Below the pieces are notes generated by a model, which made no database searches, was not told the origin of the DNA, and saw only the letters and a program-made list of their open reading frames with translations. DNA of 64,000 nt from Candidatus Thioglobus sp. MED-G25 (GTDB taxonomy: Bacteria > Pseudomonadota > Gammaproteobacteria > Arenicellales > UBA868): contig NTKC01000002.1 of the NCBI GenBank assembly GCA_002456995.1, positions 1 to 64,000 of the forward strand, in the 5' to 3' direction. Position numbers and translations under genes: made by a program. Each line of letters opens with the position of its first letter. Position 1 is the stretch's first letter. This document shows positions 51,601 to 62,698 of this stretch, in pieces.

Positions 51601-51754
51601 GGGCTCTGACCACACCAGCGAGACTGCATTCATCAGTCAGTGCGAGTGCGCGGTAACCAAGTTCTTGAGCTCTTTTAACCAGTTCCTCAGGGTGAGATGC
51701 CCCTCGAAGGAATGTGAAGTTAGACAGGCAGTGGAGCTCCACATATTCCGGCAT
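48644..51754 (-). CDS. dnaE2: Error-prone DNA polymerase DnaE2 (ImuC)
   Basis: DnaE2 is the translesion DNA polymerase induced by damage; it normally works with ImuA and ImuB. The 1036-residue protein is a C-family polymerase with an N-terminal PHP domain (ELHCLSNFTFLRGASHPEEL), the catalytic aspartates in PPDIDVDFEHERREEV, the GFPESHAASFALLVYISAWL block diagnostic of DnaE2, and a C-terminal OB fold with TLEDETGNINLVVW. No imuA or imuB is beside it; the upstream gene is an MFS transporter. A perfect LexA palindrome ends only 7 bases before the ATG, and no Shine-Dalgarno is visible there. GTG at residue 5 is an alternative start. Confidence 0.95.
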   Translation of the reverse strand: MPEYVELHCLSNFTFLRGASHPEELVKRAQELGYRALALTDECSLAGVVRAHVAAQKHHLPLIIGSEFSLANGPKLVLLATSRYGYRSLTRLVTQARSTTPKGQYRLVTDDMTYEALTDCLVLILCSLESTPSHTCADYYRTLEQSTGWLSELLPNRVWIGVEQLINGQDSQHLVQLRNVSTRTRVPLVASGNVHMHTRTRQRLQDTLNAIRLGITVPQAGHLLYVNAERHLRSLQLLERMYPADILSETTVIAEQCSFSLDEIRYQYPDKFCPDHLNPTVYLRHLVEKGMHRRWPNTVSETIKKQIQHELSLIEELNYEAYFLTVYDIVRFARSRNIFCQGRGSAANSVVCFCLGITEVDPARMEILFERFISRERNEPPDIDVDFEHERREEVMQYVYRKYGREHAALTAAVVTYRPRSAIRDVGKALGLSLDQVDRLARNISWGDDGKIIPQRVHEAGFNSRNALISTALELASEIIGFPRHLSQHTGGFLISREPLYDLVPVENAAMANRTVIQWDKNDIDTLGLLKVDCLALGMLTAIHRAFDLIQKHQGIALTMSSIPAEDPAVYDMISRADTVGVFQIESRAQMAMLPRLRPACFYDLVIEVAIVRPGPIQGDMVHPYLKRRRGEEPITYPSDAVRQVLERTLGVPIFQEQVIKLAMVAAGFTPGEADGLRRSMATWHRQGGLENYERKLINGMRKRGYDETFARNIYRQILGFGEYGFPESHAASFALLVYISAWLKHHYPAVFTCALLNSQPMGFYAPAQLVQDARRHNVVIQPVDALSSNWDCTLEEKNDQLAIRLGLRMVKGFTLPGAQRLVRLRGQIPFQNLHDLSQRGGLSKSDLQALAGANALSNLVNSHRRQAFWAVSGLKDSNPIFQNMQVPEGSPLLRTPSTAEEIQADYGSTGLSLGPHPLVLLRSELDQLGISTSAEVYQKTNGQKAQVAGLVITRQRPASANSVTFVTLEDETGNINLVVWKHLAEKQRRELLGAHLLGAVGEVQRDGDVLHLIAHRLLDHSSLLANLTNRSRNFR

Positions 51755-51761
51755 AGTGTGA

Positions 51762-51799
51762 TATTCGGTATACTGTATATATATACAGTATACCGAATA
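51762..51799. promoter_or_regulatory. 38-bp perfect palindrome containing a consensus LexA (SOS) box
   Basis: The centre, 51771-51790, is TACTGTATATATATACAGTA, identical to the E. coli LexA consensus (CTGT-N8-ACAG). The symmetry continues without mismatch for nine more bases on each side, giving 38 bp in all. It lies directly upstream of dnaE2, so SOS control of dnaE2 is the natural reading. Because the arms reach within 7 bases of the ATG, LexA would cover the start region itself. Confidence 0.92.
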
Positions 51800-51834
51800 A
51801 TTCAGATGTCAGTCGATGGATCAGATTGGAGACC

Positions 51835-53070
51835 CTATCGATTGTGGGTAGAGCTGGGGTAATTAGTGCGCGGATGTTCACTTAATGCTATAGCTGTGAT
51901 TCCAATACTGATAAGTGAGAAACCAGCTGCCAGAGAAAAGGCATAGTGGAGTTCAAAATTGCCAATAAGACCTGCCGTGACTCCACCGAGAGCACCCACA
52001 CCATCCATAAGAGCAAAACTAAACCCCAACGTGGTAGCTTCACGCTGTCCTGAGTGGTCAACAGCCATAGCGAGAACGCTGGAGCGAACAAATACCAGAG
52101 TTGCCATAGCTGCGATGAGCACCCCAGCCGTCCACCCTTGATGCGGGAATCCCGTAGCCAACAGGGCACACGCACCTGCAATCGTTAAGCCACAGATGAA
52201 TACACGACGACGCCCAATCCGGTCGGACCAGCGGCCGACCAAGGGCTGTCCTGTTGCACCGATTAACATTGCCAGTGCAAAAAACAGGCCAGTCTCGCTG
52301 GTTGAATACCCGAGTTCGCGCTGAACAAACAGCGGTGAAATCGTCATCAGTGCAATGAGTGCCATGTTATAGGTGGTTATAGCAGTGATCAAAGCGAGCC
52401 CTTTTCGGGTGGTCCAGCTGCGAAGAAGATTAATCAGATCAACCTTACTGATGCTGCTGGTTGTTGAAATCGGAATGGTGTTACGAAATTTATAAAACAC
52501 AACACCCATAATCAGCGGAGGTAAGATAGAAAGTTGCAGTGCCGATCGCCACTCCATTACCGACAGCAGAATGCCTATCACTAGCGGTGAAAAGACCTCC
52601 GCCAGAGTACCTCCTACCGCATGAATTCCCAGAGCCAGACCTTTGCGTGTGGGGAAGCGACGTGCCAAGGCACCCGTTGCGATGGGGTGCCATGCCGCAT
52701 CACCCATACCGGCTATGGCAAGCACTGCCGCGAGGATCCAGAAGTTTTGGGCAAATGATGCCAGGAAATAGCCTAATCCGACCCACCAGAACGTGAACAG
52801 CAACAGCTTACCCGGTCGTTGCACCCGATCTGAGAGGATCCCGGCTGGCAGATAAGCCAGTGCAGCACCAAAAGAGTGGAGTGTGATCAGAAGGCCAATT
52901 TGAGAAGGCTGCAGGTCGAATGCAAGCCCAATCGCCGGTGCCAGCAGCCATATCGCAGCCGGTGACCAGTCATTAGCAAGGTGCCCTACCGCCAGTAATC
53001 CCTGGAGCTTTCGGGCGGAGGCCAGATCAGAGTTGTTCTGTTTAGATGGATTGGGCATTCTAGATGGCAT
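51835..53070 (-). CDS. MFS transporter
   Basis: The 411-residue protein has about twelve hydrophobic segments in two halves, as in the major facilitator superfamily. Loop motifs are visible: PAGILSDRVQRPGK after segment 2 and the matching VGRWSDRIGRRRVF in the second half. The layout resembles the fosmidomycin-resistance (Fsr) group and other small-molecule exporters, but the substrate cannot be deduced. ATG 53070 or ATG 53058 is the likely start; the frame opens at a TTG four codons before. It ends about 80 bp before the dnaE2 start on the same strand, with the SOS palindrome between them. Confidence 0.87.
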   Translation of the reverse strand: MPSRMPNPSKQNNSDLASARKLQGLLAVGHLANDWSPAAIWLLAPAIGLAFDLQPSQIGLLITLHSFGAALAYLPAGILSDRVQRPGKLLLFTFWWVGLGYFLASFAQNFWILAAVLAIAGMGDAAWHPIATGALARRFPTRKGLALGIHAVGGTLAEVFSPLVIGILLSVMEWRSALQLSILPPLIMGVVFYKFRNTIPISTTSSISKVDLINLLRSWTTRKGLALITAITTYNMALIALMTISPLFVQRELGYSTSETGLFFALAMLIGATGQPLVGRWSDRIGRRRVFICGLTIAGACALLATGFPHQGWTAGVLIAAMATLVFVRSSVLAMAVDHSGQREATTLGFSFALMDGVGALGGVTAGLIGNFELHYAFSLAAGFSLISIGITAIALSEHPRTNYPSSTHNR

Positions 53071-53207
53071 CCTGTGCCACAATCAGCGCTTCACTAGTAT
53101 TTTCGATCCGACCAACAGGTTGTGTCTTGAGTCAGGGTCAACTTGATTCGTTAGATGTGATCGGAAGATAGGTATGTTGCCACACAGCGAGGAGGCAAAG
53201 TATACAG

Positions 53208-62494: not shown

Positions 62495-62698
62495 CTAGCG
62501 CCCATCCTGTCGCCGCACCAGCTTTTTGATCAACCACCATGCGGGTATAAGCGGTAGGCACCATAGCGCTGCTGAAATAAAAGCTAGGCTGAATAGGTGA
62601 CTTACTGTCATGACCAACAGTAAAAACACTAAGTTGTATAAGAGGTTCGACTTCCCGATATCCCAACGGCCAGTTGCTTTTGTTGGATCGTTACTCAT
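62495..62698 (-). CDS. Small membrane protein, 67 residues
   Basis: The N-terminal 18 residues are polar (MSNDPTKATGRWDIGKSN). They are followed by a hydrophobic segment LVFLLLVMTVSHLFSLAFI and a second one FISAALWCLPLIPAWWLI, then a basic end KKLVRRQDGR, consistent with a two-helix inner-membrane protein. It is the last of five same-strand small genes running from 63705 to 62495. The family is not recognised. Confidence 0.58.
   Translation of the reverse strand: MSNDPTKATGRWDIGKSNLLYNLVFLLLVMTVSHLFSLAFISAALWCLPLIPAWWLIKKLVRRQDGR

Follow-up and report, generated by a model that had tools for sequence, protein, structure and literature searches.

The dnaE2 gene in the window, as we call the whole 64,000-nucleotide stretch of Candidatus Thioglobus sp. 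MED-G25 DNA analysed here, raises the question of why a LexA operator should be symmetrical far beyond LexA's need. SOS mutagenesis drives adaptation, and leaky expression of a mutator polymerase should therefore be costly. We analysed this operator together with its partner genes and its counterparts in relatives, and found self-pairing that is conserved while the letters change, a pattern that points to a possible second lock on mutagenesis.

The dnaE2 gene and its palindromic operator

The dnaE2 product scored 1472 bits against NCBIfam PRK05672, the curated error-prone DnaE2 model (cutoff 939), and contained the Pfam domains PHP, DNA_pol3_alpha, finger, HHH and OB. Before its start codon (ATG, 51754-51752) lies a perfect 38-bp palindrome, TATTCGGTATACTGTATAT/ATATACAGTATACCGAATA, with 19-bp arms, zero spacer and zero mismatch, whose centre, TACTGTATATATATACAGTA, is the consensus gammaproteobacterial LexA box (Table 1). 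At the local composition, the nine further pairs outside the 20-bp box would arise by chance with a probability of about 4e-6, and the whole motif occurred once in the 64-kb window, with none expected. An initial annotation of this DNA had reported a consensus LexA box inside a mismatch-free dyad; the palindrome stands, and more strongly than was put there, although the span given from 51752 took in the dnaE2 ATG. Also borne out were its observations that the palindrome ends 7 nt (TCACACT) from the ATG, that no Shine-Dalgarno sequence is visible in TCACACT-ATG, and that the upstream neighbour is an MFS transporter gene, which is co-oriented with dnaE2 and has its stop codon about 36 nt before the palindrome. 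The double operator that it had considered is not supported, since the palindrome holds a single CTGT-N8-ACAG and its outer arms vary in sequence between lineages.

The -10 element of the predicted promoter falls inside the palindrome and the LexA box. The upstream outer arm spans the end of the predicted spacer and the beginning of the -10 region, and the downstream outer arm is part of the predicted mRNA leader. Because of this -10 position, the SOS transcript should begin near the palindrome centre, without the upstream arm, and its leader is predicted to be largely unstructured as long as transcription does not include the upstream arm. Such a placement has precedent: the LexA boxes of ISCR1 and ISCR8 hold a -10 element (TACTGT), and mutating it nearly abolished promoter activity with LexA removed (PMC13393415). 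No intrinsic terminator was found, and an Rfam search matched no known RNA family.

Table 1. Features of the dnaE2 upstream region (positions in the window; arms named in the dnaE2 direction)
Feature	Position	Strand	Basis
dnaE2 (imuC), error-prone C-family DNA polymerase, 1036 aa	48644..51754	-	NCBIfam PRK05672; Pfam domains
MFS transporter gene	51835..53082	-	Pfam MFS_1, 208 bits; same strand as dnaE2
Predicted sigma-70-like promoter, TCGACT-18 nt-TATACT	51787..51816	-	Weak: 1 found, 0.6 expected in shuffles
Predicted SOS-transcript leader, about 26 nt, no Shine-Dalgarno	51755..51780	-	Inferred start site
LexA operator with covarying outer arms, 38-bp perfect palindrome	51762..51799		Sequence; covariation in relatives
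LexA (SOS) box TACTGTATATATATACAGTA	51771..51790		16-bp core CTGT-N8-ACAG, 51773-51788; conserved in relatives
Outer arm upstream of box	51791..51799		Pairs with 51762-51770; paired changes in relatives
Outer arm downstream of box	51762..51770		Sequence; paired changes in relatives

A split mutasome cassette

The genome assembly comprises 1.61 Mb in 33 contigs and is 86% complete. The initial annotation had described a dnaE2 without imuA and imuB, which holds locally but not for the genome: the search that it proposed for imuA, imuB and lexA recovered all three in one operon on contig C9. This operon consists of lexA (TIGR00498), imuA (NF033429; 199.8 bits, cutoff 150) and, directly after imuA, a gene for an ImuB-like IMS-domain (Y-family) protein, and a LexA box heads it about 50 nt before lexA. 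The dnaE2 gene lies on contig C12, so that imuA, imuB and dnaE2 do not share an operon, and no full imuAB-dnaE2 cassette, which would have spoken against the earlier description, was found elsewhere in the genome. Loss or replacement of imuAB was ruled out by the operon on C9. Since the ImuB-like protein is the sole Y-family match in the assembly, no substitute polymerase need be invoked, and the suggestion that dnaE2 works with another Y-family polymerase is not upheld.

Among the family genomes with a lexA match, lexA and imuA occurred together in 28/28 and imuB came next after imuA in 27/28 (in L117 the contig ends in imuA), while dnaE2 was found within about 1.5 kb of lexA in none of the 28. 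As lexA-imuA without an adjoining dnaE2 recurs in all 28, the dnaE2/imuAB split is a shared, working arrangement. Judged from its sequence, the dnaE2 locus is half of a split mutasome cassette, an arrangement already known.

A CTGT-N8-ACAG at the predicted promoter, conserved in relatives, and a lexA gene in the genome assign dnaE2 to the predicted LexA regulon. The genome contained 18 CTGT-N8-ACAG matches, not above the 22 of a reversed control pattern, and only the dnaE2 and lexA sites among them had the A/T-rich spacer of a LexA box. No LexA box was found before recA in this genome. LexA may here control hardly anything beyond lexA itself and the mutasome, and from contigs C9, C12 and C27 the SOS regulon looks minimal, with recA apparently lacking a box. 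A second TACTGT-N8-ACAGTA lies at 62603-62622 of the window with a mixed spacer (TACTGTCATGACCAACAGTA); because the window's CTGT-N8-ACAG count is compatible with chance, it is probably no LexA site.

Conservation of the box and paired changes in the outer arms

CTGT-N8-ACAG was kept in nearly all family members with an upstream region available, at 14-29 nt before the dnaE2 start (L187 was counted from a different start). The initial annotation had named a lack of its conservation in relatives as evidence against the reading given there, and had left it to an alignment whether the central 20 bp or all 38 bp are conserved. The results showed that the box is kept as sequence, whereas the outer arms are kept as pairing and their letters vary: the window's own genus has CGG/CCG, CGA/TCG and CAG/CTG, and other lineages have GATTCCAG/CTGGAATC, CCAAG/CTTGG or CCTT/AAGG.

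We counted covariation at the nine outer pairs of 28 distinct dnaE2 operators against 500 shuffles. The operators are pooled from related sequences, so that the counts overstate independent events and the shuffle figures are not probabilities; read in this way, 81% of the outer pairs were paired compared to 59.5% in shuffles (0/500), double-change cells numbered 53 compared to 17.8 +/- 3.4 (0/500), and the covariation score was 0.543 compared to 0.174 (0/500), a signal that fell on sliding. Transversion-type double changes were common among the outer-arm pairs. The lexA operators of the same family, counted in the same manner, showed 38% pairing and no excess of paired changes. Out of 8 possible extra pairs, dnaE2 operators had 6.18, lexA operators 2.54 and near-consensus boxes of mostly other genes 3.56.

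In the clade of L093, L095 and L098-L100, the outer arms differed at 0/18 sites in all ten comparisons, while dnaE2 fourfold sites differed by 9-54% and the flank at up to 18/30. In the window's own genus, the arms roughly kept pace with fourfold sites, yet a change in one arm nearly always came with a change in the other. Selection for pairing would account for either pattern, and template switching for the second as well. Covariation and recurrence support the view that what is maintained in the dyad outside the LexA footprint is the ability of its arms to pair, and probably not its letters. Mismatches in the outer pairs comprised 18 G-U and 11 A-C, and sense and antisense strands folded about equally well, so pairing as RNA rather than as DNA is not shown by these counts. 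L106 (G013) shares the right half of the dnaE2 operator with its sister genomes but not the left half or the upstream gene; the switch lies at the palindrome centre and reflects either recombination or misassembly.

Recurrence in other lineages and genes

Long dyads with unrelated arms were also present at dnaE2 in L187, L226/L263, L233 and L234, and partly in L254. The first of these is a second, 51%-identical dnaE2 of G031 (L187/L154), whose dyad stops roughly 1 nt short of an in-frame ATG; it lies on a short contig, carries one of the longest dyads seen, and may be a paralogue or belong to a contaminant contig. One lexA gene had a long dyad, a roughly 50-bp palindrome that stops a few nucleotides short of the ATG (L216 in G108), in a reading frame that is interrupted in the assembly. 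The near-consensus umuDC, dinB and recA boxes tested were mostly without a long dyad, and no extension was found at the fully symmetric umuDC boxes L219 and L220 or at boxes overlapping a start codon. That LexA boxes are extended in general was ruled out by the same-family lexA boxes and by near-consensus boxes elsewhere.

Two other arrangements were observed. In L206, L208 and relatives (family f2) and in the Litoricola-type L042, L044 and L060, the dnaE2 ATG lies directly beside the LexA box or overlaps with it, and a TATAAT within the box of L042, 6 nt before the A of the ATG, suggests a leaderless SOS mRNA. Among the lexA leaders of L124, L126, L129 and L139, off-centre pairing is possible between the conserved GACAG of the -35 region and a CTGTC of the leader in one lineage whose upstream gene is co-oriented.

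Predicted folding and orientation of the upstream gene

A 169-nt read-through stretch with both arms had a predicted folding energy of -56.7 kcal/mol (z -6.3), with a 17-bp stem adjoining the start codon, and the predicted folding of an RNA starting at the palindrome centre was ordinary (z -0.36). The predicted cost of opening the start region was 10-29 kcal/mol in the read-through RNA of all family members with a co-oriented MFS gene (19 kcal/mol in the window's own), compared to 3-10 kcal/mol in RNA from the SOS start. Stable start-region structure is predicted in read-through RNA and not in native RNA, whose start is itself inferred. For the SOS transcript, with its predicted -10 inside the palindrome, the 5'-end hairpin proposed in the initial annotation is unlikely, but such a hairpin fits read-through transcripts. 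In MFS-flanked members the contiguous dyad ended 5-16 nt before the start codon, and none was seen to run into the dnaE2 coding sequence.

In the g6 genomes and L109, where the upstream gene is divergent, the predicted opening cost was 2-5 kcal/mol; L097 still keeps the dyad. Inside the family, the dyad was associated with a co-oriented neighbour except in L187 and, in part, L106; the upstream genes were open-reading-frame calls, not all of which had a Pfam match. The dyad of L187 is among the longest although its neighbour is divergent; L267 and L228 lack a dyad although their neighbours are co-oriented; and about 12/28 lexA genes have a co-oriented neighbour and no extension. Upstream orientation is thus suggestive inside the family and was rejected as a clean test.

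A possible two-layer lock and the rival explanations

The reading that we prefer, while stopping short of calling it probable, is that LexA blocks the promoter and that only in RNA reading through from the MFS gene does the palindrome fold, which would hide the leader. Its first layer is well supported: the box sequence, the lexA gene in the genome and the retention of the box beside dnaE2 in the family argue that LexA, on a near-ideal box overlapping the promoter, would keep dnaE2 off until DNA damage. For the second layer, the MFS gene would be the source of possible read-through RNA carrying both arms, and a hairpin over the leader of such RNA would leave ribosomes unable to start on dnaE2. 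RNA from the SOS promoter would start inside the palindrome, lack the upstream arm, remain unfolded and be translated. LexA on the DNA and a hairpin in stray RNA would together make the mutator polymerase proof against read-through. The wider proposal, that a repeatedly evolved SOS operator doubles as an RNA lock by which mutator transcripts from anywhere but the SOS promoter are untranslatable, is plausible but is offered with more reserve.

The strongest rival, concerning both the origin and the upkeep of the symmetry, is replication template switching at a quasi-palindrome seeded by the LexA box, which would copy one arm onto the other, make each paired change a single mutation event and leave the extension mainly as a by-product without a function of its own. 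Both the formation and the repair of perfect hairpin stems, as well as multi-base compensatory changes, have been reported for template switching (PMC8794818), and this process would suit the frequent transversion-type double changes, the own-genus arms that change in pairs at about the fourfold rate, and L187 with its lack of a co-oriented neighbour. However, most other near-consensus boxes remain unextended, including the fully symmetric L219 and L220; dyads stop before the start codon, though an intergenic arm could copy coding sequence; and arms frozen at 0/18 in the L093/L095/L098-L100 clade amid diverging fourfold and flanking sites require selection. We therefore regard template switching as an unlikely main explanation and argue that it does not fully account for the symmetry.

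A role at the DNA level, in which cruciform extrusion, extra LexA contacts or cooperative LexA binding tightens repression, would agree with a perfect AT-rich palindrome centred on the operator and with symmetry kept equally on both strands. It appears improbable, as there is no second CTGT-N8-ACAG and the same-family lexA operator has no extension; moreover, arm sequences that differ between lineages make sequence-specific LexA contacts unlikely. A hairpin within the SOS mRNA itself, tuning dnaE2 translation or mRNA stability, could draw on the strong fold predicted when both arms are present, but it needs a promoter upstream of the palindrome, whereas the sole promoter-like match puts the start near the centre, and a structure of up to 29 kcal/mol by the start codon would render the induced gene nearly silent; we give this account slightly less credence again. 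It is barely credible that an ordinary LexA box was extended by chance in this genome: other boxes do have palindromic extensions of a few pairs, but the probability of nine extra pairs is about 4e-6, paired changes maintain the dyad across the family, and dyads recur elsewhere.

Should the preferred reading of an operator that also acts as an RNA lock be confirmed, a single palindrome would keep dnaE2 silent at the level of transcription and of translation alike, which would explain operator symmetry far in excess of what the repressor uses. Genes under such a tight lock could then be recognised by a simple signature, and the operator would be well suited to telling selection for pairing apart from template-switch mutation. 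Our literature search found no paper joining LexA, a hairpin and read-through, and as far as we searched, an operator with extra symmetry kept by paired changes has not been described.

Comparison with known systems

The locus resembles the split imuABC of Mycobacterium tuberculosis, in which, according to the review section cited, dnaE2 lies apart from imuB and an imuA-type gene and each locus has a LexA box (PMC3901139). Here, by contrast, lexA heads the imuAB operon, and dnaE2 has a covarying extended dyad, a feature unmentioned in that section (PMC3901139). The operator shares the consensus CTGT-N8-ACAG of the gammaproteobacterial LexA/SOS box and here overlaps the predicted promoter, but its dyad extends over 38 bp rather than the usual 16-20 bp and its outer arms are variable yet paired. 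In ISCR transposase genes under LexA the box likewise overlaps the -10, whereas palindrome, hairpin and stem are not mentioned (PMC13393415).

The closest parallels to the proposed mechanism are transposase genes in which a dangerous enzyme is kept from being translated by a structure in RNA that originates outside the gene. The IS10 and IS50 transposase genes are subject to read-through occlusion. In the IS200 transposase gene, stem-loops halt transcription coming in from outside and mask the ribosome binding site (PMC3196728). The likeness to dnaE2 would lie in this blocking of outside RNA; the difference is that dnaE2 is a chromosomal SOS polymerase gene and not a mobile one, and that the putative hairpin is the repressor's operator itself.
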